Source: a virus
DNA length: 64,000 nucleotides
Direction: 5' to 3' (one strand)
IMG/VR virus record: IMGVR_UViG_3300044705_000115
Span: 62,001-126,000 of that record
Position 1 is the first letter of the stretch. Each line of letters starts with the position of its first letter. The translations under genes were made by a program, and so were the position numbers. A model generated the notes under the pieces. The model was not told the origin of the DNA, searched no databases, and worked only from the letters and a program-made list of their open reading frames with translations. Positions 1,942 to 51,646 of this stretch are shown here, piece by piece.

Positions 1942-2036
1942 GCGTCCGTAGCTCAGATCGGTTAGAGGCACGGCAACGTGTCCAGAGCGTCGCCCTTTCA
2001 AGGCGAAGGTCGCGGGTTCGACTCCCGTCGGGCGCA
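1942..2036 (+). tRNA. tRNA-Glu (UUC) with a 20-nt insertion in the D arm
   Basis: Acceptor stem GCGTCCG/CGGGCGC with discriminator A, anticodon stem TCGCC/GGCGA around loop CTTTCAA (anticodon TTC, Glu), and T arm GCGGG-TTCGACT-CCCGT are all intact. The D arm is interrupted. After GCTC AGATCGGTTA GAG there are 20 extra nt (GCACGGCAACGTGTCCAGAG) before the expected C-G. Removing them restores a perfect D stem (GCTC/GAGC) and a normal tRNA of 75 nt. The extra piece ends with a copy of AGAG, as after a small duplication, and can form a CACG-GCAA-CGTG hairpin with a GNRA loop. No CCA is encoded. It is the only plus-strand tRNA of the cluster. It may be an expanded D arm, a processed insertion, or a dead gene. 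Confidence 0.75.
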
Positions 2037-2051
2037 CTATCCTTCCTTCTC

Positions 2052-2064
2052 CCGACCAAGGAGG
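2052..2064 (+). promoter_or_regulatory. Start-associated motif CCGACCAAGGAGG
   Basis: Ends 7 nt before ATG 2072 and contains the Shine-Dalgarno AAGGAGG. The same 13 nt precede several minus-strand genes (near 21246, 32491 and 35107). Confidence 0.6.
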
Positions 2065-2071
2065 AAGACGA

Positions 2072-2566
2072 ATGAGCGAGCAGTACCGCAGCTACACCGA
2101 GAAGGCCAAACTCTTCGCGGCGACGCTCTATGACGGCAGAGAGGGCGAGGATGACCCGCTGCCCCACGCCATGATGATCACCGACGACGGCGAGGTCTCG
2201 ATGTTCGCCATCGACGGCGCCTTCATGGCCAGCGCAATCAGCAAGAGCTTCATGGTCGCGGCCATCGCCCATGATGTGGAGAAGCACAAACCGGCCTTCT
2301 TCGCTTGGCTCATACCGATCTGGGCAATTCAGGGTCACCCCAGCGATGAGCCGCCAGCGCCGGACTTCTCCAAAGACCCGCGACGGCGCGAGTACATCCA
2401 GGTCATGACCTTCAGCCCAGAGCAGGCTGAGGTCTGGATCGCCGAGATCAAACGTGACCCAGTGCGCCTTGAGCCGTGGAATGCAGACAACGGCGGCAAG
2501 GCTGAGACCAAATTCGATGGACGCTTCGCCGACCCGATCATCGAGTCGATTAGCCGCAGCAGTTAG
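2072..2566 (+). CDS. Hypothetical protein, plus strand
   Basis: 164 residues, soluble and mixed-charge, with a hydrophobic middle (FFAWLIPIWAIQG) that is too polar at its flanks to be a clear membrane segment. The start is well supported by AAGGAGG 7 nt upstream inside the recurrent start-associated motif. It is one of only two convincing protein genes on the plus strand, directly downstream of tRNA-Glu and perhaps cotranscribed with it. No catalytic motif is recognised. Its isolated orientation suggests an accessory or early gene. Confidence 0.65.
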   Translation: MSEQYRSYTEKAKLFAATLYDGREGEDDPLPHAMMITDDGEVSMFAIDGAFMASAISKSFMVAAIAHDVEKHKPAFFAWLIPIWAIQGHPSDEPPAPDFSKDPRRREYIQVMTFSPEQAEVWIAEIKRDPVRLEPWNADNGGKAETKFDGRFADPIIESISRSS

Positions 2567-2793
2567 GCTCGCCTGCGGGCGATGGTGTAGCCGCGCAAGG
2601 TGGAACTGGGCTTGGCGGCCCAGCACACGAAGCGTCATCGGTCGGGCCAGATGTGAGGCGCTGGGCGTCGATCTGCTGGCACAGCCACCGACCGGAGCGG
2701 CAACCTAGCCCCTTCTTCGTCCGCAGCATGTAGCTTGCGAATCTGCTCGGTGGTGGCCCATACTCCCGCCCGCCGCCACCGAGCAAAAACCTA

Positions 2794-2866
2794 CCCGCCC
2801 GGCAGGACTCGAACCTGCGATCTACGGCTTCGGAAGCCGTCGTCTTCTCCTCTGGACCACGGGCGG
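2794..2866 (-). tRNA. tRNA-Arg (CCG)
   Basis: Acceptor CCGCCCG/CGGGCGG, anticodon stem ACGGC/GCCGT around loop TTCCGAA (anticodon CCG, reads CGG), T arm GCAGG-TTCGAGT-CCTGC. 73 nt; no CCA encoded. Confidence 0.9.
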
Positions 2867-2872
2867 AGAAGA

Positions 2873-2944
2873 GGGATTGCCAACCGCCGGACTAGTCGCT
2901 CATCCCTCAAAGGCGGGACTTTTCTCTGTAGCGGCGGCAATCCC
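2873..2944. repeat. Inverted repeat bracketing a tRNA spacer
   Basis: GGGATTGCC (2873-2881) and GGCAATCCC (2936-2944) are perfect 9-bp arms flanking the spacer between tRNA-Arg(CCG) and tRNA-Arg(CCT). CCGCCG/CGGCGG extends the pairing after a small bulge. It could form a stem in the tRNA precursor. Confidence 0.5.
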
Positions 2945-2945
2945 A

Positions 2946-3018
2946 AGCGCCCGGTGGGACTCGAACCCACATCATCCCGACTTAGGAGGTCGGTGCTGGT
3001 CCTTTCAGCTACGGGCGC
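2946..3018 (-). tRNA. tRNA-Arg (CCU)
   Basis: Acceptor GCGCCCG/CGGGCGC, anticodon stem CCGAC/GTCGG around loop CTCCTAA (anticodon CCT, reads AGG), T arm GTGGG-TTCGAGT-CCCAC. 73 nt with discriminator T; no CCA encoded. Confidence 0.9.
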
Positions 3019-3023
3019 AGGAA

Positions 3024-3275
3024 CTACGCGGCGATGTCGGCTGGCTCGCCAGCCCTCTGCCGTCGTCTCTCCATCGCCTGTGCCTCGGGTGCGCCGAACC
3101 CAGCGCAGTCGCCATAGCGCAGCCGGTCGAAGTCGATCGGAGCGAGGTCCGCCTCGGCGCCATGCTCGCGGCCTTCGTCACGGCGCTGCCGAGCGGTCAC
3201 GGGCTTGCCAGCCATGCGCTGTTCGGCGCGGCGGTTGACGCCTTCGACTCGGTGCTGATGGCGGATGCGCTTCAT
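3024..3275 (-). CDS. Small basic hypothetical protein between two tRNA genes
   Basis: 83 residues from ATG 3275, fitting between tRNA-Val (ends 3277) and tRNA-Arg(CCU) (starts 3018) with only 1- and 5-nt gaps. Rich in Arg, Glu and Ala; no recognised motif. An upstream extension would run through the tRNA and is rejected. It could be a fortuitous open frame in a processed tRNA transcript, so confidence is limited. Confidence 0.35.
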   Translation of the reverse strand: MKRIRHQHRVEGVNRRAEQRMAGKPVTARQRRDEGREHGAEADLAPIDFDRLRYGDCAGFGAPEAQAMERRRQRAGEPADIAA

Positions 3276-3276
3276 A

Positions 3277-3351
3277 TGCCCAATCGAGGACTCGAACCTC
3301 GGCTGACCCGGTATGTAACACCGGCGCTCTCCCAAACTGAGCTAATCGGGC
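3277..3351 (-). tRNA. tRNA-Val (UAC)
   Basis: Acceptor GCCCGAT/ATTGGGC with discriminator A, anticodon stem CCGGT/ACCGG around loop GTTACAT (anticodon TAC), T arm with TTCGAGT loop. 75 nt; no CCA encoded. Confidence 0.9.
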
Positions 3352-3440
3352 GGGTCGCCTTCGATACCCCGATGGTCCCCGAAGGGAGCCAGTACCGAAG
3401 GCGAAGGCGAGTGTAGCCGCTGCACGGCTAACTGTGTGAG

Positions 3441-3512
3441 CGCCCCCGGCAGGAATCGAACCTGCGATGTGGGCTTCGTAGACCCATGCCTTGTCCTCTT
3501 GGCTACGGAGGC
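3441..3512 (-). tRNA. tRNA-Arg (ACG)
   Basis: Acceptor GCCTCCG/CGGGGGC, anticodon stem TGGGT/GCCCA around loop CTACGAA (anticodon ACG, reads CGU and, after A34 editing, CGC/CGA), T loop TTCGATT. 72 nt. First of the four minus-strand tRNA genes in transcription order. Confidence 0.9.
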
Positions 3513-7200: not shown

Positions 7201-8967
7201 CTACTCGCCGAAACCGGCCTGGTACTCCTCGTCGCGGAAGCCCGGGTCGTAGCGCTGGGCGTCGTACTCGTCGAGTTCTGCCCGCTCGAACTCCAGCATC
7301 TCGTCGAGCGGCTGGAAGACATCTCGCGTGTCCGCATCGACCCCCTGCCGGTAGTGCCAGAGCTCGGTCGCAACCACGTCGTAGACCTCGGCGTGGGTGT
7401 AGTCGTTGGGGCCGGTCTTGCGGTAGTGGACTTTGGTGCGGCCGAACTCGTCAGTTTCCGCCTCGCGCACCTCGCCCTGCAACTCGTCCTTGTAGCCCTC
7501 CGGCAGCGCTTCGGGATCGCATTCGCGGCCCCCAGGAAGCTCGTTGAGCTGGCGCCGGATCAGGTCGTAGGTCGCGTCGATGGCCTCGACCCTGCGCACC
7601 GTCGCCAAGATCAGCTCCTCATCGACAGCGAAGACCTGTTTCTGGTTCTGCGCGTAGGCGACCAGATAGACCCGGCCAGGGAAGCGCTCGGCCAGCCGGC
7701 GGCTCATCCGCTCCTCGGGCGCGTGGTCGATCGCGCACATGTTCACGTTGAAGCGCCGCATCAGCGACTCAAGCTCGTTGAAGGTATCGACGCGCCCGAT
7801 CCACAGCGCCCGCTTGCGCTGGTCCTCGTAGTGCTCACTGATCCGCACGTTCATCGCCCGCGCCGAAGCGACATCGACGCCCATCGTCACGAGGTTGGCC
7901 GTCTGCCGGCCACCGTCCTTCGGCTCGAGCGAGTAGGCACGGCAGGCGGCGGCGATGGCGGCATCGGAAAGGCGCCCCTCCTCGTCGGCGTAGGCGAGGC
8001 CCAGGTCCTTGTTGAAGTGCGTCTTCTTGTCGGTCGGGTTCGTCTTCTTCGAGGCTTTGATGATTTCCCGAACGTTGGTGTTGGGTTTGACTAGGCGCGG
8101 GATGTGGTAGCCGCGAATGTCGATGTCGGGATGCTCGGCGACCCATTCGCCCTGCCGAACATCGAGCGGCTTGCGGCACTTTGAGCAGATGACCGTGGCC
8201 GTCTCTAGATCGACGTTGTCGGGGAACTCGATGTGCTGCCAGTTGCGGCAGGCCGCGCACTTGACCATCCAGCGCCGCATGTCCGATTCCTCGTAGAGCC
8301 GGTCGATCCCCCAGTTCGGGGTCGAGGGGACGCCGACGCGCCGGATCAAGGCGATGTCAGAGCCGGAGATGCGGCGCTCGGCGTCGGGGATGTTCTCCTG
8401 CGTGAGGGTGTCGTACTCGTCCAGCGCGAGGACATCTGCATCGACCGAGTCCAGCGCGGTTTTGGTCTCCGAGCCGCGGAAGTAGACCATGCCCAGCCCG
8501 ATCTGCCGCAGCCCCTTGTTCTGGACATGCGCTGGCGGCACGCGGCCACGCAGGTACTCAGACCCTAGGATCGCCTGCTTGACGCGAGCGTCAGCGAAGT
8601 CGTACATCTGGGCGAGTTTCGGGAAGACGTAGAGCGCGACTAGGGCGCCGATGTCGGCGTGGTACATGACCCAGCGGGTCAGGTAGGCGGAGATGCCGAG
8701 CTGGGTCGCCTTTTTGATCACCATCTCCTTCTCGTAGGCGCCCTCGGCGTACAGCTCGCGCTGGAAGGGGAAGCGGTCGAAGTCGAGCGTCCCCGATTTC
8801 GGCTCAGGTACGCGCAGCGCCCAGTCGAGGAACGGCGTGCGCTGGTTCTTGCGGTCAGCCTGCTGGGTTTCCCAAAGCTCCAGCACCGCCTTCAGCGGGT
8901 CGATGTGGGGCGCCGTGGTCGCGCCCGTCGCCTGGGCACCGAAGCGCGTGGTCAGGGGGCCAGCCAT
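7201..8967 (-). CDS. terL: Terminase large subunit (lambda gpA / GpA superfamily)
   Basis: 588 residues; ATP-driven DNA packaging motor and headful or site-specific nuclease. The ATPase half shows a GpA-type degenerate Walker A (KKATQLGIS, about 85-93) and Walker B DVLALDEYD (about 178-186). A CxxC...CxxC zinc site (CAAC near 237, CSKC near 261) separates it from the nuclease half, as in lambda gpA relatives. The RNase H-like nuclease shows GVDVAS (Asp 365), AIDHAP (Asp 414) and HAEVYD (His 525/Asp 530). The ATG overlaps the small-subunit stop by one base. Strong call. Confidence 0.93.
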   Translation of the reverse strand: MAGPLTTRFGAQATGATTAPHIDPLKAVLELWETQQADRKNQRTPFLDWALRVPEPKSGTLDFDRFPFQRELYAEGAYEKEMVIKKATQLGISAYLTRWVMYHADIGALVALYVFPKLAQMYDFADARVKQAILGSEYLRGRVPPAHVQNKGLRQIGLGMVYFRGSETKTALDSVDADVLALDEYDTLTQENIPDAERRISGSDIALIRRVGVPSTPNWGIDRLYEESDMRRWMVKCAACRNWQHIEFPDNVDLETATVICSKCRKPLDVRQGEWVAEHPDIDIRGYHIPRLVKPNTNVREIIKASKKTNPTDKKTHFNKDLGLAYADEEGRLSDAAIAAACRAYSLEPKDGGRQTANLVTMGVDVASARAMNVRISEHYEDQRKRALWIGRVDTFNELESLMRRFNVNMCAIDHAPEERMSRRLAERFPGRVYLVAYAQNQKQVFAVDEELILATVRRVEAIDATYDLIRRQLNELPGGRECDPEALPEGYKDELQGEVREAETDEFGRTKVHYRKTGPNDYTHAEVYDVVATELWHYRQGVDADTRDVFQPLDEMLEFERAELDEYDAQRYDPGFRDEEYQAGFGE

Positions 8968-18172: not shown

Positions 18173-18382
18173 CTATTCGGTGATACCGAGCTTTTTCGCC
18201 ATTGCTTCTACGTCCCTGCGGAGCCACACGGTCGTCGCCTTCAACTCCTGCAGCGGTTCGGGCATCTTCCCCGCCTTCTGCCATCGACTGATCTGTGGAA
18301 CCCCCTTCTTCAGGATCTCCGCCGCCTCAGCCGCGCCGACGATGTCCTTGCGGTTCCTCCTGATCTTTACTTCCCTTTCCAT
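18173..18382 (-). CDS. AlpA/MerR-like small DNA-binding protein
   Basis: 69 residues. Layout DIVGAAEAAEILKKGVPQISRWQKAGKMPEPL followed by VWLRRDVEAMAKKLG is the winged helix-turn-helix of AlpA, excisionase and MerR-like regulators. Good ribosome site GAGGAGAGG before ATG 18382. It could be an excisionase or a transcription factor; no integrase is present in the window to decide. Confidence 0.65.
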   Translation of the reverse strand: MEREVKIRRNRKDIVGAAEAAEILKKGVPQISRWQKAGKMPEPLQELKATTVWLRRDVEAMAKKLGITE

Positions 18383-18684
18383 TCCTCTCCTCTGCCCGGT
18401 CCGACGACAGTCGGCCCGCGATCAGACTCGGCCCAGTCGTAGATAGCCACTGCCGAGTCGGTGACTTTGTCGACGACGACGAGGTTTGGAACCTCCGGGT
18501 TCCACGGCCCCCAGACCTCCGGCCACCACGCGATCTCATCGAACTCCTCGCCGACCTTGGGCGGCTGCGGGGATGGCTCGTCGAAAACGATGGCCCTCGC
18601 TTCCTGCTCACGTCCCTTCTTGCGGGCGAACAGGTAGACGCCGAGCAGCAAGCCGATCCCGCAGATACCGATTACGCCGGGCAT
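18367..18684 (-). CDS. Small protein with N-terminal membrane anchor
   Basis: 105 residues. Begins with a hydrophobic helix (VIGICGIGLLLGVYLFARKKG, residues 4-24), then a soluble Trp-rich part (EIAWWPEVWGPWNPEV) facing the cytoplasm or exterior. Starts one base into the end of the HD-hydrolase gene and overlaps the AlpA-like gene by 16 nt. No family recognised. Confidence 0.5.
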   Translation of the reverse strand: MPGVIGICGIGLLLGVYLFARKKGREQEARAIVFDEPSPQPPKVGEEFDEIAWWPEVWGPWNPEVPNLVVVDKVTDSAVAIYDWAESDRGPTVVGPGRGEEWKGK

Positions 18685-19142
18685 CAGCCAGCGCCCCCCT
18701 CAAGCAGTTCCAGAGTCCGCAGATACTTCCTGCTGAGGTGCGCCGCCTGCTTCGGCGGCAGCTTGCCCTGGCGCTCGGGGGAGAGGTTGTGTTTGAGATC
18801 GGCCACCTTGACGACGCTCGCAAGGAAGTTCTCTCGCACCCGCAGGACGTAATCCTCGTAAGGCTCGCCCGGATTTTGCGTGATCGCGCGGAGCGCAGAT
18901 GCCTGCTTTGGGGTCAACCAGCGGGGGTCTGCATAGGAGACATTCGGCCGCTCGAAGTCAACGATTTCGAGTTCGGTGTCCTCGAAGACATCGTGCAGCA
19001 GAGCCACGACCCGATAGTCCTCGCCGAGTCCGCGGACGGCTTCCTCGACAGCGACCGGATGGAACAGGTACGGCTCGCCGACCTTGTCGGTCTGCCCGGC
19101 GTGGGCATCGAGCATCAGCAGGTAGGCGTCCCGGCGATTCAC
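18684..19142 (-). CDS. HD-domain phosphohydrolase of the ppGpp-hydrolase (SpoT/MESH1) type
   Basis: 152 residues, one compact HD domain. Metal ligands follow the SpoT/MESH1 order: His 28 in LFHPVAV, His 50-Asp 51 in ALLHDVFEDTE, and Asp 115 in VKVADLKHNL. The EDT after HD and the late DLKHNL are typical of enzymes that remove the 3' diphosphate of (p)ppGpp. No synthetase or TGS/ACT domain is attached. A phage copy could blunt the stringent response or clear alarmone-like defence signals; that role is inferred. Overlaps the GHKL-ATPase gene by 4 nt (ATGA). Confidence 0.75.
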   Translation of the reverse strand: MNRRDAYLLMLDAHAGQTDKVGEPYLFHPVAVEEAVRGLGEDYRVVALLHDVFEDTELEIVDFERPNVSYADPRWLTPKQASALRAITQNPGEPYEDYVLRVRENFLASVVKVADLKHNLSPERQGKLPPKQAAHLSRKYLRTLELLEGGAG

Positions 19143-20668
19143 AGCGCGACCTCCTTGGCAGCGTCGTCCTTCAGGTCAGGCTCGGCGACCAGCGCCGCCG
19201 CCAGCCTCGCTCCGACCTTGCAGCAGGCGTCGTAGAACTCCTTGCTCAGGTGTTCCGCTGCCCACTGGTGGGCAAACTCGTGGATCAGTAGTTCGTGGGC
19301 GCGGTCGGAGACCTGCGACCCCTCCATTGCCTCCTCGAAGAAACGGTAGCCGAGCGCGGTGAAGTTGAAGGTCAACTCCGCCCTCGTCGGGCTGATCCTC
19401 TTCCAAGTGGCGTTGAACGGCCAGTCCCCGCGCTTCTTGGGCTGGGCGATCTTCACCGTGAGGTCGCTGACATCGAGGATGCGATGCGCCAGCTCCTTCG
19501 CGTAAGCAGCGAGTTCGGCGACGTAGGTCGGCCAACTCTCCTCCGGCATCAGGTTCAGCAGGTCGTCTCCGGCGTCCGGCTTGGGCGACGGGGTGACCTG
19601 ACCAGCAGGCAGCGCGGAGGCCGAACCCTTGACGGCCTTCCAACCCTCTTTCGAGAAGGCGCCTGCGGGGATGACCGTGTAGCCCTTGCTGACGGCGATC
19701 TTTTCGGCCTCGCGGTCGCTCGGGTCTGCGGTGACCACCTTGGCGCCGTACCGGGCAGTGACCACCGACTGAACCGCTGCTGGCGCGACAGCCTCGTCCT
19801 CAAGAGCGTCATCAACCCAGCGCTCGCTTGCGGTCTCTGCGTCGAGTTCGGCGTGTATCGCGTTGAGGACTGCCGCCCGCACATCGCGCAGGTAGCTCGG
19901 CGGCACGTTGTCGCGGTCGGTGTTCAGCGGCACCTTCTGGCTCACGTTTACGTGGTAGGAGTCGCCGGTTTCGACCACCGGTATCCCGAGCTCGTAGAGC
20001 ATCCCCTTCTCGTCTCCGGTCGGCTCGAAGACCTGCACCCAGGTCTTGCGCGTGGTCGGACGCAGGTAGCCCTCCTCGTCGGCCCGCTCCGTCCGCAGGC
20101 TGATCTGAAAGCTGTAGCGCGACTCCCTAGGGGGGATCTTCTTCCCGTTGAAGGTCGTCTTGACACCTGACGGCGGTATCAGCCGGAACATCAGCCGCTC
20201 GACCGCCTTGACCTCCTCGGGCGTCAGCCGCACGAACCCCCGGAAGGCGCTGCCTTTCGTCGTCGGGCGCGTCTTGTCCATTTCGCGGCCCTCGGCGGTG
20301 AACTTGACCAAGCCGGTCGTGGTCTGGATGGTGGCCGATTCGCACATGGCGATGACCAGCTTCTCGCCGAGATTGAAGCGCCCGCGTTTGGTCGGGTCGT
20401 CCTTCTTCTTGGAGTCGGCGAACAGGGTGTAGGCGTGGGCGATGTCGGCGAAGCCGTCCGGCGAGTCGTCGGTGACTTCGATCAGGTAGATCGCGTCCTC
20501 GCTCTCGGGAACGCCCTCTTGGAAGTCCAGCGCAACTTCAACGTTCTCGACCTTCTCGTCCCAAGCGTTCTGCACCAGCTCGGCGACAGCGAACTCCTTG
20601 CCTTTGCGCTGCAGGAGCTTCGCCAACCCCTCTTTATCGACCTCGAAGGTCGGCAGTTTCTCAGCCAT
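19139..20668 (-). CDS. GHKL-type ATPase fused to a zinc-metallopeptidase-like C-terminus
   Basis: 509 residues. The N-terminal 250 residues show a Bergerat ATP fold: N box ELVQNAWDE (30-38), DDSPDGF (67-73, like the DxGxG box) and GRFNLGEK (96-103, lid), then beta-rich transducer-like segments. Residues 255-420 include an alpha/beta stretch (KVVTADPSDREAEKIAVSKG). The last 50 residues carry HEFAH (463-467) and a further His at 473 (HEFAHxxxxxH), the zincin signature. Hsp90/MutL-like ATPase plus peptidase in one chain is uncommon. It is translationally coupled to the HD hydrolase. Substrate unknown; ATPase call firm, peptidase activity inferred from the motif. Confidence 0.75.
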   Translation of the reverse strand: MAEKLPTFEVDKEGLAKLLQRKGKEFAVAELVQNAWDEKVENVEVALDFQEGVPESEDAIYLIEVTDDSPDGFADIAHAYTLFADSKKKDDPTKRGRFNLGEKLVIAMCESATIQTTTGLVKFTAEGREMDKTRPTTKGSAFRGFVRLTPEEVKAVERLMFRLIPPSGVKTTFNGKKIPPRESRYSFQISLRTERADEEGYLRPTTRKTWVQVFEPTGDEKGMLYELGIPVVETGDSYHVNVSQKVPLNTDRDNVPPSYLRDVRAAVLNAIHAELDAETASERWVDDALEDEAVAPAAVQSVVTARYGAKVVTADPSDREAEKIAVSKGYTVIPAGAFSKEGWKAVKGSASALPAGQVTPSPKPDAGDDLLNLMPEESWPTYVAELAAYAKELAHRILDVSDLTVKIAQPKKRGDWPFNATWKRISPTRAELTFNFTALGYRFFEEAMEGSQVSDRAHELLIHEFAHQWAAEHLSKEFYDACCKVGARLAAALVAEPDLKDDAAKEVAL

Positions 20669-20936
20669 GCTTCCTCCATCCCATTTTCTTGACTCGAAGC
20701 TTCGCGTTGATCGGCACCCATTCCTCCAAGCTCTCCGCGAGCTTTCGCCGCTGGCGCCAGTTCAGCCCCCGCACGTAGAGAGTCGCGTCGCCCTTGAAGG
20801 GGTCGCCGTGAATAACTTCCGCTTCGGTGGCACCGACGATGAACGCCTCACGCATCGCGTCTTCCGCAGTGAGAACGCCCATCGTCGGTCTTGCCCCGAA
20901 GAGGTTCCGCCAGAACTGCTCTCGCGTCGAGCGCAC
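20661..20936 (-). CDS. Small hypothetical protein upstream of the GHKL ATPase
   Basis: 91 residues from GTG 20936, one base after the stop of the HARE-HTH gene, and overlapping the ATPase start by 8 nt. Mixed alpha/beta with a basic C-terminus (RVKKMGWRKHG). No motif recognised; probably part of the same functional cassette. Confidence 0.5.
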   Translation of the reverse strand: MRSTREQFWRNLFGARPTMGVLTAEDAMREAFIVGATEAEVIHGDPFKGDATLYVRGLNWRQRRKLAESLEEWVPINAKLRVKKMGWRKHG

Positions 20937-20937
20937 C

Positions 20938-21240
20938 CTACTCAGCCGCGCTCGCGGTTCCCTCGCCCTCCTTGTGGCGCTCGATCAGGTCGTAGACGCC
21001 GGGGCCGGTTCGGACGAAGGTGTCCTGCCGCGCCGCGCAGGTCGCCAGCTTCGCCGAAACGCTCTGCGCCGGGGTCTTGCCCTTGGTCACGACCTTGCCC
21101 TCGTCGAGCATCCGTTTCGTGATCTCCTGGTAGTGGAGCGGCCCCTTGGCCCGCGCGATGACGCGGCGGGCGCCCTCTTTCATGTCGATGCCTTTGGTCG
21201 TCTTGGCCTTGGCTTTCGACGGTTTCTTGGTGGTAGGCAT
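20938..21240 (-). CDS. HARE-HTH domain protein
   Basis: 100 residues from ATG 21240. After a Lys-rich start, residues 20-88 match the HARE-HTH (HB1, ASXL, restriction endonuclease) winged helix: ARRVIARAKGPLHYQEITKR, then SVSAKLATCAARQDTFVRTG and GVYDLIE. The domain binds DNA and is often linked to restriction or modified-DNA recognition. The start-associated motif sits right upstream, so it is probably the first gene of the transcript that runs through the GHKL ATPase and HD hydrolase. A longer in-frame start would run antisense through the collagen-like gene and is rejected. Confidence 0.75.
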   Translation of the reverse strand: MPTTKKPSKAKAKTTKGIDMKEGARRVIARAKGPLHYQEITKRMLDEGKVVTKGKTPAQSVSAKLATCAARQDTFVRTGPGVYDLIERHKEGEGTASAAE

Positions 21241-21245
21241 GTCGG

Positions 21246-21258
21246 CCTCCTTGGTCGG
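21246..21258 (-). promoter_or_regulatory. Start-associated motif CCGACCAAGGAGG
   Basis: Exact copy on the minus strand, 5 nt upstream of ATG 21240. GTAGTCT lies upstream, as before the copy near 11498. Confidence 0.6.
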
Positions 21259-21309: not shown

Positions 21310-21339
21310 CCGACCAAGGATCAACGAAAGGACGAGAAG
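21310..21339 (+). promoter_or_regulatory. Composite leader of the collagen-like gene
   Basis: CCGACCAAGGA (21310-21320) followed by CAACGAAAGGACGAGAAG (21322-21339) directly before ATG 21340. TGCTAACTT upstream (about 21282-21290) could be an extended -10. Faces the minus-strand start at 21240 across a 99-bp divergent region. Confidence 0.5.
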
Positions 21340-22467
21340 ATGATGAAGCGACTGATGTTGCTCGTGATCGCGGCGCTGGCGGTTCTCGCCGTGCCGGCGA
21401 CCGCATCGGCGGCCAACCACAAGCCGAAGGTCTGCCCGGCGGGCAAGCACCGCAACGGCCCCAAGTGCGTCAAGAACCACACTACGCGCGGACCCGCTGG
21501 CCCCCAAGGTCCGGCTGGCGCCAACGGCAAGGATGGCAAGGACGGCTCGAACGGCAAGGACGGAGCCAACGGGATCAACGGCAAGGACGGAAAAGACGGA
21601 GCCAACGGTGCCGATGGACATGACGGTGCCACGGGCGCTACTGGCGCCACCGGTCCGGCCGGACCTACTGGGCCGACTGGCCCTGCGGGACCGACTGGTC
21701 CAACTGGCCCCTCCGGTCCTACCGGACCCGCTGGCCCTACCGGGCCGACTGGCCCCACGGGTCCGACCGGCCCTACCGGTCCGACTGGGCCGCAGGGTCC
21801 GCCCGCACCCCCGACCTACGGCAATAACCACTGGTCGCAGGTTGATCGCAACACCGAAGGGGACGCCAACGCCTTCCTGCGCGGCGGCCCTCTCGGGGGT
21901 GGCTTCGGCGCAAGTCAGGCGCCGCCGCTGGGCGAAGGCTCGCTCGGCTTCAATGTCGCCAACGGAACCAGCAAGGTCGATTTCGGCAACGAAACCGACT
22001 ACAACGGGAAGACGGTCGCCAGCCTGACGAAGGTCGGCTACTGGGTCTTCACGACGGCCGAAAACATCGGCTTCGCTGGCGGCGCTGTGAACATGCCGTC
22101 GATCCGGTTCGAGATCAACCCGCAGGGCGCTGGCAGCACGACGACGACCTACTCGACGCTCGTGTTCACGCCAACCGCCAACTCAGCCCCGAATACGTGG
22201 ACGCACATCGACGCGACCACCGAAGGGCTTTGGGGTCTGACCGGTGGCCAGTTCAACTCGCCCCCGACCTCGGCGAACTGCGGCCTCAACGGGCCGCGCT
22301 GCACCTTCGCCGAAGTCCAGGCTTTCCTTGCGACCGGAACCGGCGCGACGATCTACACCGCCGCTGTCGGCAAGGGCAAGGACTACCAGTTCCACGGTGC
22401 CGTCGATTCGCTCGAAATCGGCAACGACACCGTTAACTTCGAGCCGAACGGGGTGCTGGTCGAATAG
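21340..22467 (+). CDS. Secreted collagen-like protein
   Basis: 375 residues. A clear signal peptide (basic MMKR, hydrophobic core, ATASA cleavage site near 24) is followed by a small Cys pair (VCPAG, KCVK). Residues 51-156 are an unbroken Gly-X-Y tract, first GKDG/GANG repeats, then GPTGPTG repeats. The C-terminal 215 residues form a beta-rich domain with CGLNGPRC and the ending [14 protein letters not shown], which resembles a domain of extracellular proteins in soil bacteria (ending like TTYDFEP). A signal peptide means export by the host, unusual for virion collagen fibres. Own start motif and a downstream hairpin make it a self-contained plus-strand unit (moron). Confidence 0.85.
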
Positions 22468-28169: not shown

Positions 28170-28644
28170 GTTCTTCCTCCTCTGTGTGTTCTCTTTCGAG
28201 CGCGTAGAGGAGATCGTGGATCTCCGCCACGAGCAGGGCATTCGGTGCTTTTGCGGTCACGACCGCAATTCCGAGACGACGCATCCCGGAGTGATGGTCG
28301 CCGTGACAGGTGGTGCAGAGAGGCATCCGCCATCGCGGGTCCCAGGCGACCGCGAAGACCTCCCATTCCGAGTAGCCGCGGTCTCGCAGGATTCGTTCGA
28401 TGACCTGTCTCCGCAGCACATGGTGGGCGTGCAGTTTTACCGCTGGCGCAGCAAGTCCGCAAGAGGCGCATTGTCGTCGCCGCGCATCTCCCAGGAACAG
28501 CCCCATCAGCGACCGCTCGATCTTCGTCAGCTTCGGTTTCGTCTTCCGCCGGAGCGGCGTCTTGCGCTTCAAGGGAGCGCCCCTTTTGAGCGGCGTTTTG
28601 CGCTGGAGGGGTTTCCCTCGCCGGAGGGGGCCGGAGCGCTTCAC
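28159..28644 (-). CDS. HNH endonuclease with basic N-terminal repeats
   Basis: 161 residues. The HNH/zinc core reads CASCG...HAHHVLRR...CTTCHGDHHSG (about 59-122), with two CxxC pairs and the His-His catalytic pair. The first 40 residues repeat KTPLKR/APLKRK-like units and would bind DNA nonspecifically; such KTPL/RK repeats also occur at the start of phage NinG- and recombination-type proteins. Overlaps the downstream methyltransferase gene by 4 nt. It may nick DNA in recombination or packaging. Confidence 0.75.
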   Translation of the reverse strand: MKRSGPLRRGKPLQRKTPLKRGAPLKRKTPLRRKTKPKLTKIERSLMGLFLGDARRRQCASCGLAAPAVKLHAHHVLRRQVIERILRDRGYSEWEVFAVAWDPRWRMPLCTTCHGDHHSGMRRLGIAVVTAKAPNALLVAEIHDLLYALEREHTEEEEHAR

Positions 28645-30353
28645 GCGGGCGCTCCGTCGCTCTCAGGCGCCTCTGCGGGGACGTTCATCAGCGGCGCGTC
28701 GTCTCGCAGCCGCTTCCTCGCCTGCTCCGCGTACTCAGGGTTGAGCTCGACGCCCACGAAGGAGCGACCGAGCCGCAGCGCCACGAGGCCCGTCGTACCG
28801 GCGCCAGCGAACGGGTCGAGGACGACAGCAGGCATGGTGGGGGCGGGTACCCAGTCAGGAGGGTCGACTGGCTCCAGCCGCCCCTCCTCGATCAGCGTGG
28901 CGAGGACGCGCTGCGGCAACGGTCGGCCACCGCCGGCATCGAGCCGCAGGTAGTGCGCCCACGCCTCGTAACTCAGCTCGAAGCGTTCGCGTAGCGCCAG
29001 CGCCTCATCAGCCGAGAGGAGTCGGAGCTGCCTGGCGTAGCCGCGCTGCTGGAAGCGGGTGATGGTCGAGCGCCCGGCGCCCGCCCCGCGTGGCCGCGAG
29101 AACCCCGCCCGCCCCACATCGAGGGAGGGATCGTCGGTGCCACCTTCGCCAGTCGGTGACTCGATCAGGTCGAGATCATCCGGTTTCAGGCCGCCGGAGC
29201 CGCACGAGCATCCCGGCCGCCAGCCCAGCGTCTCGACCTTCGTCTCGTAGCGCCAGTGGCCGACACCCTGGGCACCGATCCGGCCAGCATCGTCCTGCGC
29301 CCAGCCACCCTCGACTGGCTCGCTATCGACCGTGCGCTCGCGGGCGACCATCCGCACCCACGGCGTCCCGCAGACGACGCAGACGCCGCCTTCGGGCGTC
29401 CCCGCCCTCAGGCACGGCTCGACCAGCTTCGGCGGGAAGGTGGCGAAGTGGGCGTCCTTGTAGGGGACGGTGGCGATCTCCCAGACCGACCGCTTGTTGC
29501 GGCCACCGGGCGGCAGCGCCTTCTCTGCCGAGTTGGCGAGGTCGTGGCGACCCGGCCCGTCCTCCCACTTGTGGCCCTCGTTGTGCCATGTCCGCTGCAC
29601 GCGCTTGACCGAGACCGGCTTGTGCGGCTCGCGGATCGCATCGCGGTCGTAGAAGTAGCAACCCGACTTCGCCAGCAGGAAGACCTGCTCGTGCGCCTTG
29701 GTCGGCCGGTCGCGCACGGACTCAGGCATCGGGTTCGGCTTGGCCCAGATGACCTCGGAGCGCAGGTACCAGCCGTCCTCCTGGAGGGCGAAGGCGACCC
29801 GCCACGGGATGCCGATCAGGTCCTTGGGCTTGAGGCCGGGGACGTTGGCGCCGCTGCGTTCGATCCCGTCGTGGCGTGGCAGGCCGGCCTGCTTCGACCC
29901 GCCGGCGTGGCCCCCGTCGCGCCCGGCGTTGTAGCTGTCGCCGATGTTGAGCCAGACGGTGCCGTCGTCGCGCAGGACGCGGCGGACCTCGCGGAAGACG
30001 GCGACGAGCTCTGCGACGTACTCGCGCGGCGATCCCTCCAGGCCGATCTGCTCGTCAGCCCTGACCGCGCCGCACTTCCCGCAGAGCTCGCCGTAGGCGA
30101 CATCCTCAATCTCCGCGACCTTGTGGCCGCCGCCGCGCGTCGATACGGGGCTTTCGGCCAGCCCGAGTCCTCGCCGCATCTCACCCTTGATGTGGTCGCA
30201 GTCGGGGTCGCCTCCCTCCCAGGAGCCGGTTCCGTAGTCGCGCAGACCGAAGTAGGGAGGCGAGGTAACGACGCAATGGACTGATTCGTCGGGCAGCGCC
30301 CGCAGTGCCTCGCGGCAGTCGCCGACGATGATCCTCCACGACTGCTCTTTCAA
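28641..30353 (-). CDS. DNA N4-cytosine/N6-adenine methyltransferase, beta class (first copy)
   Basis: 570 residues. Beta-class order: catalytic SPPY (31-34) at the N-terminus and AdoMet motif DPFAGAGTTG (513-522) at the C-terminus. Between them lie GLKPKDLIGIPWRVAFAL, typical of this class, and two Cys-rich inserts (LCGKC, then CVVC...CSCG) that could bind zinc. About 230 residues longer than a minimal enzyme. Orphan, next to an HNH nuclease gene but without a recognisable restriction partner. Target not predictable from sequence. Confidence 0.88.
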   Translation of the reverse strand: MKEQSWRIIVGDCREALRALPDESVHCVVTSPPYFGLRDYGTGSWEGGDPDCDHIKGEMRRGLGLAESPVSTRGGGHKVAEIEDVAYGELCGKCGAVRADEQIGLEGSPREYVAELVAVFREVRRVLRDDGTVWLNIGDSYNAGRDGGHAGGSKQAGLPRHDGIERSGANVPGLKPKDLIGIPWRVAFALQEDGWYLRSEVIWAKPNPMPESVRDRPTKAHEQVFLLAKSGCYFYDRDAIREPHKPVSVKRVQRTWHNEGHKWEDGPGRHDLANSAEKALPPGGRNKRSVWEIATVPYKDAHFATFPPKLVEPCLRAGTPEGGVCVVCGTPWVRMVARERTVDSEPVEGGWAQDDAGRIGAQGVGHWRYETKVETLGWRPGCSCGSGGLKPDDLDLIESPTGEGGTDDPSLDVGRAGFSRPRGAGAGRSTITRFQQRGYARQLRLLSADEALALRERFELSYEAWAHYLRLDAGGGRPLPQRVLATLIEEGRLEPVDPPDWVPAPTMPAVVLDPFAGAGTTGLVALRLGRSFVGVELNPEYAEQARKRLRDDAPLMNVPAEAPESDGAPA

Positions 30354-35106: not shown

Positions 35107-35119
35107 CCTCCTTGGTCGG
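35107..35119 (-). promoter_or_regulatory. Start-associated motif CCGACCAAGGAGG
   Basis: Exact copy on the minus strand before ATG 35102. GTAGTGT lies about 22 nt upstream and may be a -10. Confidence 0.6.
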
Positions 35120-35194: not shown

Positions 35195-35353
35195 GGATGA
35201 AGACCGTGGAGCGTCTGTCCCTCGGCGTCAGGTCTTGCCTGCCGCCGTCAATGTCCGACCAAGGACGGGGCATAGCTCGTCTCCGTTCTTCCTGCTCACA
35301 GGCTAGCGAAATACCTCGGATGGTTTGACCAATTGCTCAGGAAGAATCGCCTG
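35195..35353. other. Intergenic region with an orphan start-associated motif
   Basis: The rest of the 251-bp gap after the last lysis gene. Plus-strand CCGACCAAGGA at 35255-35265 has no convincing gene behind it; only a 25-codon frame from ATG 35252 overlaps it. Otherwise nothing recognised. Confidence 0.35.
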
Positions 35354-38279: not shown

Positions 38280-38813
38280 CTACATGAGGTCGCCCAGCCG
38301 CGAGACACCGACGATGAATCCTTCGTCGTACTGCAGGGCGAGGTTGAGATGGGCGGGGGTCACAGCATCGGCCAGTGCTTCCACCTGGCCGACCGTGAAG
38401 GATTCAGCCGCGTAGGGGATCGTGATGCGGAGGTCGTAGGCGCCGGGATCGTTCTCCTGGTGCTCCCAAACGGTCGCGCCGAGGGCGATGTTGAGCAGGA
38501 TGATCCAGTCTTCGCCGGACCCCGACAGCCGCGCCTTCTCGTAGGCCGCGACGATGTTGCGGCGCTGTTCGAGCGAGACCCCGTACGGTTCGACCGGGAT
38601 GCCAAGCTGCTCCTCTCGCAGGCCGAGCTGTCCGTAGTCGTCCGCTGCGTGCTGCGGAAACCACTGCTTGCGAACGACATTCATGAACTCCTCAAGGCGC
38701 TGAAGCTCGCGGGCCAGCGGGTCGATGATGGCTTGGGCCGCCGGGTCGTCGCTGTAGTAGTGGGGCATCATCCCCATCAGGGCCTCTCCGGCGTCTGAGA
38801 GTTCGGCGGGCAT
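38280..38813 (-). CDS. Tail protein I / XkdU-like (DUF2313-type) baseplate protein
   Basis: 177 residues. Begins with a helix and MPHYYSDDPAAQAIIDPLARELQRLEEF, then LGIPVEPYGVSLEQRRNIVAAY and ends with AHLNLALQYDEGF. This pattern (start DPxxxxxL, then LGxxxxPxxxxxxRRxxI) is that of XkdU/tail protein I, which links the baseplate J ring to the fibres. ATGA overlap with the baseplate J gene. Confidence 0.75.
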   Translation of the reverse strand: MPAELSDAGEALMGMMPHYYSDDPAAQAIIDPLARELQRLEEFMNVVRKQWFPQHAADDYGQLGLREEQLGIPVEPYGVSLEQRRNIVAAYEKARLSGSGEDWIILLNIALGATVWEHQENDPGAYDLRITIPYAAESFTVGQVEALADAVTPAHLNLALQYDEGFIVGVSRLGDLM

Positions 38814-39970
38814 CAGACTTCCAGGCTCACCGTGCCGAGCTGGGCCACTTCGCTCGAGCCGATGACGACCGTGCCAGCGACTTCGTTGAGTTTCACCGAA
38901 ACGATGTCGTGGACGCCTTCGACCAGGAAGAAGCGGCTCTCGGTCTTGTTGAGCAGGACATCGTCACCGGGGGCGAGGCGGTCGATGTATTCCGAGAGCA
39001 CCCTTTCGAGGTCGGAGCGCACCGCAATCGTGCCGCCCGTGCCATCGAGCGTGTAGCCGTTGCTGAGTTCGACTTTCGCTTTGACATTGACCGTTTTCGA
39101 GGTCGGGGTCGCCACCGTGACCACAGCACCGACCGGCGCCTTGCCAGCGCCCTCGCCAGGGATCGGGTCGAGTTCGTTCTGCAGCGATTCCACAACGGAG
39201 GCGCTGACCGGGTTGTTTTCTTCGTCGGTGATGACCACCTTCACCGTGCCGGCGCCAGCCCACAGAGGGATCACGGTCACGAAGCCGATGCCTTCATGGG
39301 CCAGTGCCCAGCGTTTGTAGTCAGCCACGTTTCCAGCGCCCTGCGCAGCGCCGAGCTCAAGCAGGAGTCGGGCGCGGTAGGAAGCATCGCTCTCCACATC
39401 GGCGCCCCCCGTGATTGCTTCGTCGTTGGCAACGCTTTCTACGCCTTCAATCGGCGAGAGCAGGAAAGCGGCCGCGCCCGCAGCTACATTCGACGCAGCC
39501 CCAGCTTCCTCCGCTTTGACCGGTAGCGTGAGTTCGCCGCTGGCGCCGATGGTTCCCGAGCCAGTCGTGAGATAGCTCGGAGGATCCTCGTCTGGGTCGG
39601 TCTGCGCGGTGCCGATCTGAGCACCGACGCCGATGATCGTCCCTTCGTCGCCTTTGAAGGTGACCTCGCCGGTCGCGTATGCCTTGTCTTTGCGCGGCAC
39701 GTCGATCGTTTCGCCGTGATCGTCGAGGTTTTCGCCCCAGGAGTAGGCGACATAGATCGCCGCCGGTACCTCCGCTGAGGCGAAGTCCCAGAGACGCGCG
39801 ATCTCCAGCACGAGAGGCTGCGTGAGGTCGTAGTAGAAGCCGCCCGGCGTCGTGTCGATGAAGCGGGCATCGTCTGGGTCAAGACCAGCGTTGGCATCGG
39901 CATCGACCCGCGCCCGCACTTCGGCGAGCGTGACCGGCACGAGGGGAATCCGGGTCGTCAGATCAGGCAC
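38813..39970 (-). CDS. Baseplate assembly protein J (XkdT-like)
   Basis: 385 residues. DARFIDTTPGGFYYDLTQPLVLEIARLWD near the start, a central beta domain (ASNVAAGAAAFLLSPIEGVESVAND about 155-185, then GGADVESDASYRARLLLELG) and VKVVITDEENNPVSASVVESLQ are the usual blocks of the baseplate J family. It builds the wedge ring of contractile tails. Gene order gp25/DUF2634, J, I is conserved in PBSX-like phages. Confidence 0.88.
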   Translation of the reverse strand: MPDLTTRIPLVPVTLAEVRARVDADANAGLDPDDARFIDTTPGGFYYDLTQPLVLEIARLWDFASAEVPAAIYVAYSWGENLDDHGETIDVPRKDKAYATGEVTFKGDEGTIIGVGAQIGTAQTDPDEDPPSYLTTGSGTIGASGELTLPVKAEEAGAASNVAAGAAAFLLSPIEGVESVANDEAITGGADVESDASYRARLLLELGAAQGAGNVADYKRWALAHEGIGFVTVIPLWAGAGTVKVVITDEENNPVSASVVESLQNELDPIPGEGAGKAPVGAVVTVATPTSKTVNVKAKVELSNGYTLDGTGGTIAVRSDLERVLSEYIDRLAPGDDVLLNKTESRFFLVEGVHDIVSVKLNEVAGTVVIGSSEVAQLGTVSLEV

Positions 39971-40512
39971 TAGAGGCTCAGTCCTTCTTCGATGGCGAGG
40001 GTGGTCGCGTCGTCAAGGACGACCTCAAAGCGCACAAGCAGCGCCTCATCGTCTTCGGCGTCCTGTTCGGCCTGGAAGTTTTCGATGCCGCTGATCGCTG
40101 GGTGGAACAGCAGTGCGTCGGCGATCCTTTCCTCGAGCGAGGCGATGTCGGCGGAGTCGAACTGGTCGCCGAAGACATCGGTGGGGCTATCGAGGCCGTA
40201 GGAAGGCGGGTGGATGACGCAGCCGCCGCGGGGCGAGCGCAGGCACTTCTCGATCCAGTAGCGGAGGGTCTGGGTGCGCCTAGTCTCGATCGGCTGGTGG
40301 CCAGCCATGACGAAGCGGTGGGCAGAGAAGTCGAATGCCCAACTACGGCCTAGCGGCGTCGGGGCAGGCTCGGTCGTGACGACGAGATCGTCGGCATCGA
40401 CCGCCGCTTCCCCAGCTTCAAACGCCTCGTCGATCGTGGCGGGAAGCTCGTCCTCCGAGAAGAGTTCGGGGTTGGCTTCGCCCTGTTCGACGGTTTCCAG
40501 CTCGTCAGCCAT
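39970..40512 (-). CDS. Baseplate wedge protein, gp25/DUF2634 (XkdS) type
   Basis: 180 residues. An acidic N-terminal 65 residues precede a gp25-like domain: WAFDFSAHRFVMAGHQPIE, ETRRTQTLRYWIEKCLRSPR, HPPSYGLDSPTDVFG and VRFEVVLDDATTLAIEEG. These match the DUF2634/XkdS order that shares the T4 gp25 lysozyme-like wedge fold. Stop overlaps the baseplate J start. Confidence 0.75.
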   Translation of the reverse strand: MADELETVEQGEANPELFSEDELPATIDEAFEAGEAAVDADDLVVTTEPAPTPLGRSWAFDFSAHRFVMAGHQPIETRRTQTLRYWIEKCLRSPRGGCVIHPPSYGLDSPTDVFGDQFDSADIASLEERIADALLFHPAISGIENFQAEQDAEDDEALLVRFEVVLDDATTLAIEEGLSL

Positions 40513-40563
40513 GCTGCGCCTAGTCTAGGTGCGGCTGCTGCGGAAACCCCCAGTCGAACATCG

Positions 40564-42225
40564 TCAGGCAGTAGTGGCGTCTTCGCCGATGATCCCGATT
40601 TCCTGCAGGATCGTGATGAGGCTCGACATCGCCGTTCCCGTCGAGCGCGAGCCGGTGATTTTCTTTTTCGCCTGCGGTCCGGCCCCGTTGATCCCGAGTT
40701 TGCCTTCGACTTCGAGGTCTTTGGAGACCGACAGCTTGGCGATGATCCGCAGGACTTCAGCGCCGTTGCGCTGCAGGAAGGTGTCGGCGCCCGTGGAGCC
40801 CGGCCCCCACCCCATCTGGCCACTCGTTTCGAGCTGGAACCGCGAGTGAGCCTCTGCGGCTTTCAAGGTCTGCAGCGCGATGGTTCCGGTTTCGGCAGTC
40901 TGGATCAGCACTGGATTGCTGGCAGAGGTCGGCGGCGTGTAGCTGGCGCCGCCGTAGACCTTGAGGTCGATGGTCGCCGAGGTGGAAGGCGTGCCGACGA
41001 TGACCGAGCCAGATGCCTGTTCGACCAGCGCGGAGATGCGCGAGTTGCCCGAGTCCCCCAGGGTGAAGTCGAAGGCGCCTTCGGTGCAGCCGACTACCTT
41101 GACCGCGTTGATGATCCAGTTGTAGCCCTTGCCCGTGGCCCACTTGAATCCCTTTTTGCCATGCGCGGATTCGTCAACGAAGACCTTGCCGCCCAGCCAG
41201 AGGCCGTTGTCGCCCTCGAGGAAGACATTTGCGGTGACAGCACCCTCCGCCTCGCAGTTGACCGCCTCGACATCGGACTTGATCTCCATCGCGTATTTGC
41301 ACTCACCCCAGGCATGGACATTGGTCATCTTCGTCGCGTAGCCCGTGGTGTCGATCAGGATGTTGGTCAGCGTGTGGCTGGCGTCCTTGGCGATCGCAAC
41401 CACATTCGTCAGGTGCCAGTCGTGTCCGGCGATGCGGATGTTGCGCCCGCCCGCGAGCCAGCTCTTCGTGTTGGTGATGAAGGAGTCCATTCCCCCTTCG
41501 GTGTCCACCCCATCGACCGTCTGCTGCAGATTGATGTTGTCGGTGGCGCAGTTGTAGACCTGGATGCCGTCGATGCGGAAGCGGCTTCCGTCGATCTTCA
41601 GCCCAGAACCCGAGGAGTTGTGCGCCTTGTTGCCGTCGATCGTGAGATCGGTGATGGAGAAGTCGACGATGCTGGCTGAGCCATAGCCTTCGCTCGTAAT
41701 CACATCGGTGTTGGCGCCATCGGGGAGCGCGAGGATAGTCGCGCCAAGGCCAACGCCGGCGAGATGCACGCCGGACTGCAGCACAACATCGGCGACGAGG
41801 AACCTGCCTGCCGGGAACAGGAGCGTGCCGCCGGTCGCGGCCATCGCTTCGATCCCGCTGTTGAAGGCTGCGGAGTCGTCGGTACTCCCGTCGCCCTTGG
41901 CGCCGAATTCCCGGACATCCGCCGCCGGCGAGCTTTCTTTCACATCGGCGAGGCTCAGCACATCGTGGGCGATCCAGTCGCCGTTGTGCAGGCGCGTGAC
42001 GATCAGTCCGTCGCCCGCCGCGATCCCGATCTTCCGGTCATAGCGACGCACATTCTGAGTGAAGAGCAGGTCGTCTTCTGTCAGCTTGTGTTTGGAGTCG
42101 GTGAGTACCGCGATCAGCGGATTGGTCTTGCGGACGACCGCGACCCGGATGCCCGGCTTGCGGTTCGCAACGTCGTGGGCGTTGCGGCGGATCGAACGGG
42201 CCAGCTCTCGGCTCGCTTCGCTCAT
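40564..42225 (-). CDS. DUF2577 (XkdR)-like baseplate domain fused to a pectate-lyase-type tailspike
   Basis: 553 residues. Residues 1-92 (RSIRRNAHDVANRK, IRVAVVRKTNPLIAVLTDSK, AAGDGLIVTRLHNGDWIAHD) fit the small OB-like XkdR/DUF2577 protein expected at this place in the cluster. Then DVREFGAKGDGSTDDSAAF (about 101-119) opens a Pectate_lyase_3 right-handed beta-helix running to about residue 430, with typical stacked strands (VDFSITDLTIDGNKA and so on). The last 100 residues (RFQLETSGQMGWGPG, NGAEVLRI) resemble a fibre C-terminus with a trimerising end. Probable depolymerase tailspike for host surface glycans. Confidence 0.75.
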   Translation of the reverse strand: MSEASRELARSIRRNAHDVANRKPGIRVAVVRKTNPLIAVLTDSKHKLTEDDLLFTQNVRRYDRKIGIAAGDGLIVTRLHNGDWIAHDVLSLADVKESSPAADVREFGAKGDGSTDDSAAFNSGIEAMAATGGTLLFPAGRFLVADVVLQSGVHLAGVGLGATILALPDGANTDVITSEGYGSASIVDFSITDLTIDGNKAHNSSGSGLKIDGSRFRIDGIQVYNCATDNINLQQTVDGVDTEGGMDSFITNTKSWLAGGRNIRIAGHDWHLTNVVAIAKDASHTLTNILIDTTGYATKMTNVHAWGECKYAMEIKSDVEAVNCEAEGAVTANVFLEGDNGLWLGGKVFVDESAHGKKGFKWATGKGYNWIINAVKVVGCTEGAFDFTLGDSGNSRISALVEQASGSVIVGTPSTSATIDLKVYGGASYTPPTSASNPVLIQTAETGTIALQTLKAAEAHSRFQLETSGQMGWGPGSTGADTFLQRNGAEVLRIIAKLSVSKDLEVEGKLGINGAGPQAKKKITGSRSTGTAMSSLITILQEIGIIGEDATTA

Positions 42226-49751: not shown

Positions 49752-50083
49752 CAGCTCCCCCTCTGCGCGGTGCGGCTCGGCTTGTTGCCGCCTTCGAGCT
49801 CATTGAGACCGATGGCGCAGCCGTAGGTGAACGCCTTGACCCGTCCGGGGTAGGGCGGCAGCCGCGGCTCGCTCAGCTCGTCGGTCGGCAGGAAGATGAA
49901 GTGCCGGTTCCCGCACATGGCGCACTCCGTCGCCCCCGGTTTCAGGGGCAGCGAGTAGCACGCCGGGCACGGGTGTGGCGCCGTCGTCCTCCGGTACTGA
50001 TCGTCGAGGCCGTTGTAGAGGCGGTAGGGGTCGTGCCCTGCTTTCCAAGCCAGTGCCAGGACAAGTGCCTCTCCCCCCCGCAT
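49751..50083 (-). CDS. Tail assembly chaperone, frameshift extension (XkdN second part)
   Basis: 110 residues if read from ATG 50083, but better seen as the C-terminal extension of the upstream chaperone. The frame is -1 relative to that gene and begins just after its slippery site. Carries ALAWKAGHDPYRLYNG, a pattern typical of second chaperone parts, and a CPAC...CAMC zinc ribbon. Ends at the tape-measure ATG. The fusion protein would bind the tape measure during tube polymerisation. Confidence 0.75.
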   Translation of the reverse strand: MRGGEALVLALAWKAGHDPYRLYNGLDDQYRRTTAPHPCPACYSLPLKPGATECAMCGNRHFIFLPTDELSEPRLPPYPGRVKAFTYGCAIGLNELEGGNKPSRTAQRGS

Positions 50084-50085
50084 TA

Positions 50086-51017: not shown

Positions 51018-51038
51018 GGCTTTGCTGAGCGCGAGCCG

Positions 51039-51608: not shown

Positions 51609-51646
51609 GTAGTCAGATTCCTTTCGTGATCCTTGGGTGCGCGGCT

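Follow-up and report, generated by a model that had tools for sequence, protein, structure and literature searches.

A widespread phage protein family joining a GHKL ATPase to a predicted zincin, a candidate ATP-gated clamp protease

Introduction

What a GHKL ATPase fused to a metallopeptidase-like domain might do for a phage, and whether the genes encoded next to it form one system with it, are the questions raised by a run of minus-strand genes in the virus record IMGVR_UViG_3300044705_000115. We analysed bases 62001-126000 of this 130,043-base record, a stretch of 64,000 nucleotides that is referred to below as the window. It derives from a contractile-tailed phage, as genes for a terminase, tail sheath, tape measure and baseplate are present (Table 1). 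A first-pass annotation of the DNA had described four coupled genes behind a start-associated motif, encoding a HARE helix-turn-helix (HARE-HTH) protein, a 91-residue protein (p91), a 509-residue protein with Bergerat ATPase boxes and a C-terminal zincin motif, and a SpoT/MESH1-like HD hydrolase, and had suggested that they could work together in defence or counter-defence.

The 509-residue protein is predicted to end in a zincin domain

The 509-residue protein was modelled with AlphaFold2 as a monomer from a 95-row alignment of its family, with a mean predicted local distance difference test (pLDDT) score of 93.1 and a predicted template modelling (pTM) score of 0.86. The alignment (A2) started from 115 open reading frames (ORFs), which were reduced to 99 references by removing groups of ≥90% identity and the loci L002-L004 and L006 (L numbers denote loci carrying relatives); L051, L080, L094, L109 and L122 were also left out and the window protein was included. 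Two further alignments were made, A3 with 93 rows (L114 and L119 left out) and A4 with 52 rows that were picked by hand and exclude L052 and L075, so that the invariance of its zinc residues is partly a matter of that choice.

The N-terminal part of the model, comprising ATPase and transducer, matched topoisomerase II, GyrB, MutL, MORC2 and TRAP1 with VIA Z scores of 14.8-15.7, the top matches mostly covering residues 5 to about 281-309, and gave 58 Foldseek matches at E ≤ 0.001. N34, D67, G72, G96, K103 and Q244 are kept in all 95 aligned members, residue 30 is Glu in 93 and Asp in two, G101 is kept in 94 with a replacement in L105, and residue 245 is Lys in 88 and Arg in seven. We take E30, N34, D67, G72, G96, K103, Q244 and K245 to be the residues expected for catalysis in GHKL enzymes. 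The Bergerat boxes named in the first-pass annotation were thus borne out, with the N box, G1, G2 and the transducer Lys/Gln conserved in an ATPase-transducer fold that is matched at Z ~15. Pfam HATPase_c_3 matched the window protein at E 1.7e-4 (22.1 bits, below the cut-off of 25), and a profile of the whole protein gave borderline matches only among solved structures (sacsin, 0.0071; MutL, 0.013). The NCBIfam model of the sacsin N-terminal domain matched 93 of the 95 members, with the window protein below its cut-off (25.6 vs 50). Residues 5 to about 281 share fold and catalytic residues with MutL, MORC, type II topoisomerases and Hsp90 (TRAP1), but these proteins have other C-terminal parts, in whose place the window protein carries the zincin.

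The C-terminal part contains the sequence HEFAHQWAAEH at residues 463-473. Modelled alone (residues 286-509, pLDDT 95.6), it had its best VIA match in Wss1 (5xbn; Z 7.8, root-mean-square deviation (rmsd) 3.3, 110 residues), followed by selecase (Z 6.5), jannalysin (6.0), abylysin (5.7) and SPRTN (6mdw, 5.7); BepA and Ste24p were also among the matches, at Z 5.7-6.5. Unlike the window protein, the WLM and SprT minigluzincins Wss1 and SPRTN carry no fused GHKL ATPase. A predicted helix at residues 455-466 contains the HExxH motif and the third His lies just ahead of a helix at 476-495, while weak sequence alignments brought the motif and this His into line with their counterparts in abylysin 4jiu (E 0.053) and the WLM protein 5jig (E 0.16). 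Structure prediction and alignments thus agree with the earlier proposal of a zincin-type C terminus, with the HExxH helix placed as in zincins. Pfam WLM was matched by eight of the 95 members and YgjP-like by four, with a best E of ~1.5e-4. The set H463, E464, H467 and H473 is complete in 93 of the 95 members, and both active sites are kept in 92, the exceptions being L052, L075 and L105; the distance to the third His differs in ~13 further members, and identity in the zincin domain falls to about 20-40% in many alignment rows. The predicted architecture, in which a GHKL ATPase and a transducer like that of MutL, MORC, topoisomerases and Hsp90 are followed by a linker and a zincin, probably of the Wss1/SprT kind, is well supported by these models.

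The fusion is a widespread family distinct from rIIA

An alignment-based scan of viral contigs found 162 relatives of the fusion among 188 pattern matches, and 80 of the 162 were kept for follow-up. In bacterial and archaeal genome contigs, the corresponding scan found 37 loci among 76 pattern matches; several of these are partial, nine reach no more than 25-35% identity in the ATPase part, and 13 have a neighbour gene in common with a viral locus. Isolated phages contributed a single relative, in the unannotated LR745208.1 (485 kb), from 50,697 phage records. Among the Pfam, PHROGs, NCBIfam and PADLOC models scanned, none names or covers the fusion, the matches being domain-level and weak. 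We conclude that the fusion is a real, widespread and unnamed protein family, a variant of phage GHKL proteins. A GHKL-metalloprotease fusion was not found described in the open-access papers searched, subscription papers being mostly outside the scope of that search; the sole match holding both terms, PMC7824862, treats GHKL and metallopeptidase/zincin proteins as separate.

T4 rIIA likewise has an N-terminal GHKL domain followed by a different C-terminal domain, and BFVD structural matches of the fusion include RIIA proteins. Membership of the rIIA family was considered and rejected: hhalign gave a probability of 34% and aligned the ATPase part only, and no rIIA PHROG was matched at E ≤ 1 by the six members scanned. 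PMC7824862 presents rIIA orthologues as GHKL proteins with a variable C terminus and a poorly understood counter-defence role, and suggests that phage SprT-like peptidases of patchy distribution cut host proteins. By analogy, the fusion could be an rIIA-like counter-defence protease that cleaves one particular protein of host defence or exclusion, DNA not being involved. Its patchy distribution and the lack of fixed neighbours would suit such a role, whereas its position outside the rIIA family does not. Moreover, if each phage group aimed at a different host protein, one would be less likely to see the two active sites so well conserved among so many groups. We regard this explanation as possible rather than probable. 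The commonest neighbour clusters of the fusion occur in seven of 100 dereplicated groups, none higher. Proteins with the motif LRQLYYQF, which make up one of these clusters, were considered as a partner of the topoisomerase VI A kind, an idea that neither Pfam nor PDB searches bore out.

A possible ATP-gated clamp protease

As to activity and target, we infer from its likeness to better-known proteins that the fusion may be a phage ATP-gated clamp protease, likely acting on DNA-bound or host proteins, and we give this reading a probability of about 0.4. In this mechanism, two N-terminal ATPase domains would bind ATP and close around a substrate, as other GHKL proteins do, and closure would carry the client protein to the zincin at the far end of the clamp. 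The zincin would then cut the client and ATP hydrolysis would reset the clamp. The clients would be proteins on or crosslinked to DNA, host and defence proteins included, that are removed during takeover and replication. DNA-bound clients seem likeliest, given that proteins acting on DNA are among the closest folds of each half: MutL, MORC and topoisomerases for the one and Wss1 and SPRTN for the other. In PMC4559962, Wss1 is reported to be activated by DNA binding and to work with the AAA ATPase Cdc48. The conservation of both active sites and the wide spread of the family also speak for the clamp protease, as does the setting of its gene in the window beside those for a DNA methyltransferase, a helicase and a DnaC-like loader.

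Several observations weigh against the clamp protease. VIA warns that Z scores below 8 may reflect just a common arrangement, and the best zincin match is at Z 7.8; Foldseek gave no match for the C-terminal model at E ≤ 0.001, and Hsp90 C-terminal domains also match that model, at Z ~5. When the zincin sequence profile was searched against solved structures, the top match was myroilysin (E 0.012), ahead of abylysin and WLM proteins. We take myroilysin to be an astacin-like metzincin, and the HExxHx5H spacing is compatible with metzincins too. Two of the 95 members, L052:5977-7491 and L075:5394-6878, have lost the zinc site with the ATPase residues intact, so a functional protease is not needed for the ATPase to work. 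Finally, the step that makes the clients DNA-bound is drawn by analogy only.

The Hsp90 likeness raises the question of whether the clamp might instead fold or hold structural proteins, with the zincin trimming them, as a chaperone or virion-maturation protease. Alignments with TRAP1 and GRP94 extend over most of the modelled protein (for example residues 1-497, 376 aligned, rmsd 9.0), and PMC7824862 reports phage metallopeptidase-chaperone pairings with a proposed role in virion assembly. However, the rmsd over this long alignment is high, and the fusion lies among DNA-metabolism genes, its surroundings in the window including genes for a DNA methyltransferase, a helicase and a DnaC-like loader, whereas tail sheath, tape measure and baseplate are encoded at 38813-53128. 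A role in virion assembly is thus unlikely.

Should the protein function as its architecture suggests, the fusion would be a phage-invented, one-gene, ATP-driven protease that is present in at least 162 viral stretches. A broader claim, that it founds a new class of ATP-dependent protease in which a GHKL/Hsp90-type clamp and not an AAA+ ring feeds a built-in minigluzincin, is doubtful at present; we know of no use of a GHKL engine for proteolysis. If true, the clamp protease would tie rIIA and other phage GHKL proteins, a long-standing puzzle, to the DNA-protein crosslink proteases, and would offer a compact protein in which to test both.

Other phage GHKL families occur near the fusion

Gene content around the fusion was examined in 50 viral records drawn from the 80 kept loci and chosen mainly for longer contigs, all of which may be fragments. 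Strong phrog_6077-type genes (E ≤ 1e-50) were found in eight of the 50, at 1.0-15.4 kb from the fusion by coordinates, two of the eight (L017 and L018) being near duplicates. By a rough post hoc hand estimate, the probability of seven such distances arising by chance is near 1e-6. All phrog_6077 matches together came to 18 of the 50 records, including weak ones, several of which hit either the fusion or phrog_8203-type genes. The phrog_6077-type proteins are a different family of unnamed phage GHKL proteins that, like the fusion, often end in HExxH: six of the eight strong ones do and two do not. The members in L136 and L139 lack the motif. HExxH was not seen in the three isolated-phage phrog_6077-type members read, from three of 112 records. 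On the broader claim of a new protease class, phages would use several such families, at times near one another in a single genome. Since the two genes are close in eight of the 50 records and six of the eight proteins end in HExxH, the fusion and the phrog_6077-type protein may then form a mixed clamp. Examples of phrog_6077-type proteins with a C-terminal HExxH are L030:8529-9968 and those of L010, L032, L042, L088, L137 and L138.

Strong phrog_8203-type genes were present in four of the 50 records, and the five members read have EExxH instead of HExxH at the C terminus. The corresponding gene of Yuavirus AN14 is annotated as a metallopeptidase. Judged by eye, the GHKL motifs of this type are permuted, with the G box before the N box, in L093:1768-3288 and in L128:2986-4164 (Yuavirus AN14).

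Sequences of this kind bear on whether the zincin of the fusion cuts anything. It could bind metal or a partner in a structural role while the ATPase does the work, as the EExxH of the phrog_8203 type, the missing HExxH of L136 and L139, and the loss of the site in L052 and L075 would allow. Against this stands the retention of the catalytic Glu and the three His in 93 of 95 members of a domain that is otherwise so divergent, and we consider a non-proteolytic zincin quite unlikely.

The neighbouring genes look like local company

The four ORFs of the first-pass annotation were found at the claimed place, end to end on the minus strand (Table 1). The coupling it described was upheld but the number of genes was not, as the run comprises six genes, with a 105-residue and a 69-residue protein also encoded in coupled genes behind HD. 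By ORF coordinates, HARE and p91 are separated by 1 nucleotide (nt), and the overlaps are 8 nt for p91/fusion, 4 nt for fusion/HD, 1 nt for HD/105-residue gene and 16 nt for the 105-residue/69-residue genes. The start-associated motif, CCGACCAAGGA, has nine sites in the window at ≤1 mismatch compared with 1.67 expected from shuffles, and one of the nine does lie just before the HARE start. At gene starts the motif also occurs in divergent pairs, at 21248-21258 (-) and 21310-21320 (+), and at 35109-35119 (-) and 35255-35265 (+).

Table 1. Coordinates of the gene run, the parts of the fusion and the phage structural genes in the window
Feature	Position	Strand	Basis or remark
Start-associated motif with Shine-Dalgarno core	21248-21258	-	Directly before HARE start
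HARE-HTH small DNA-binding protein, 100 residues	20938-21240	-	ATG start; Pfam HARE-HTH
p91, 91-residue protein	20661-20936	-	ORF; no Pfam/PHROGs/PADLOC match
GHKL ATPase-transducer-linker-zincin fusion (predicted), 509 residues	19139-20668	-	AlphaFold model, structural matches, conserved active sites
GHKL (Bergerat) ATPase and transducer, residues 1-281	19826-20668 (computed from residue numbers)	-	Structural matches and conservation
Linker domain, residues ~286-370 of the fusion			
Zincin domain (predicted), residues ~377-509, H463/E464/H467/H473	19139-19540	-	Domain model, structural and sequence matches
HD-superfamily small alarmone hydrolase (predicted), 152 residues	18684-19142	-	phrog_990; 7smg
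105-residue protein, single hydrophobic N-terminal stretch (by eye)	18367-18684	-	Coupled to HD; weak relative in L007
69-residue HTH protein, excisionase-like	18173-18382	-	phrog_66 E 3e-5, phrog_4691 E 3.5e-4; relatives in L007, L008
Terminase	7201-8967		
Baseplate	38813-39970		
Tape measure	45477-49751		
Tail sheath	51647-53128		

The identity of the HARE-HTH protein was confirmed by Pfam (PF05066, E 2.2e-11, 44.4 bits vs a cut-off of 25.9); tblastn found no match to it in the phages collection. The same Pfam model also matches Bacillus subtilis, Thermus composti and Lactococcus lactis controls, so a HARE domain alone does not mean sensing of DNA modification. We take the B. subtilis RNA polymerase delta subunit to be a member of this HARE-HTH family. 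For p91, no Pfam or PHROGs family was found up to E 1 and no tblastn match in the phages collection; across 123 loci, tblastn found a relative in L007 only, at 40% identity.

The HD protein matched phrog_990 (E 1.1e-34) and, below the cut-off, Pfam HD_4 (E 8.2e-5). Its closest solved chain is 7smg, named a (p)ppApp hydrolase (E 1.3e-17, residues 8-147), and the HD, ED and late Asp motifs of the window protein are matched in that alignment, in keeping with the SpoT/MESH1-like hydrolase first proposed. HD-like proteins occur in 317 of the 50,697 phage records at E ≤ 0.01. On this sequence evidence, HD is probably a small alarmone hydrolase of a kind ordinary in phages, sharing fold and motifs with MESH1/SpoT-like enzymes and showing nothing unusual, and it most likely acts alone, destroying (p)ppApp/(p)ppGpp-type signals. 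A counter-defence role for phage HD-alarmone hydrolases is already proposed in PMC7824862.

The first-pass annotation had envisaged the four genes as one system, in which HARE would be the sensor and the protease the effector, with the hydrolase clearing alarmones. Translational coupling in the window is consistent with this, as is L007, the closest relative (fusion 68% identical), which keeps the order HARE, p91, fusion, HD, 105-residue-like gene and HTH with a gene for 61 residues added before HD. All four genes look to be under purifying selection, since nonsynonymous/synonymous rates (dN/dS, NG86) against L007 are 0.248/0.935 for the fusion, 0.399/1.718 for HD, 0.212/0.787 for HARE and 0.600/1.462 for p91. 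Beyond L007, however, the set is not retained. In tblastn searches of the 122 loci besides that of the window, L007 was the sole locus with relatives of HD and p91 next to the fusion, and a HARE relative turned up in L007 and L008 only; in the latter (49% identity) the HARE gene is ~3 kb off, HD is missing and an HTH gene follows the fusion. Of the 50 fusion-bearing viral records, two matched the HARE family model and seven had a phrog_990 HD, which by coordinates is adjacent in L007 and at least ~18 kb away in the other six. PADLOC gave no match up to E 0.1 for HARE, p91, the fusion or HD. Single-query scans of viral contigs for HARE, HD and p91 found no relative, but they also missed L007, which has all three, and so are not evidence of absence.

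With co-occurrence limited, in the loci searched, to L007 and in part L008, we regard the cassette as peculiar to a single phage group. The check on relatives that the first-pass annotation had put forward thus went against the single-system proposal; a joint defence or counter-defence function now appears very unlikely. HARE, p91 and HD look like cargo that this lineage carries in the transcription unit of the fusion, neighbours by circumstance and not parts of a conserved system, a warning that a run of phage genes is not a system on adjacency alone.

Other features of the window

Divergent from the run, an ORF of 375 residues at 21340-22467 (+) carries collagen-like GPTGPT repeats. The DNA methyltransferase at 28641-30353 (-) has 570 residues; its match to phrog_67 extends over 564 residues against 240 positions of the profile, which suggests a long insertion. 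Five tRNA genes, four of them for tRNA-Arg, lie at 1942-3512, and a 1500-residue protein with several endolysin-type matches is encoded at 59188-63690 (-).

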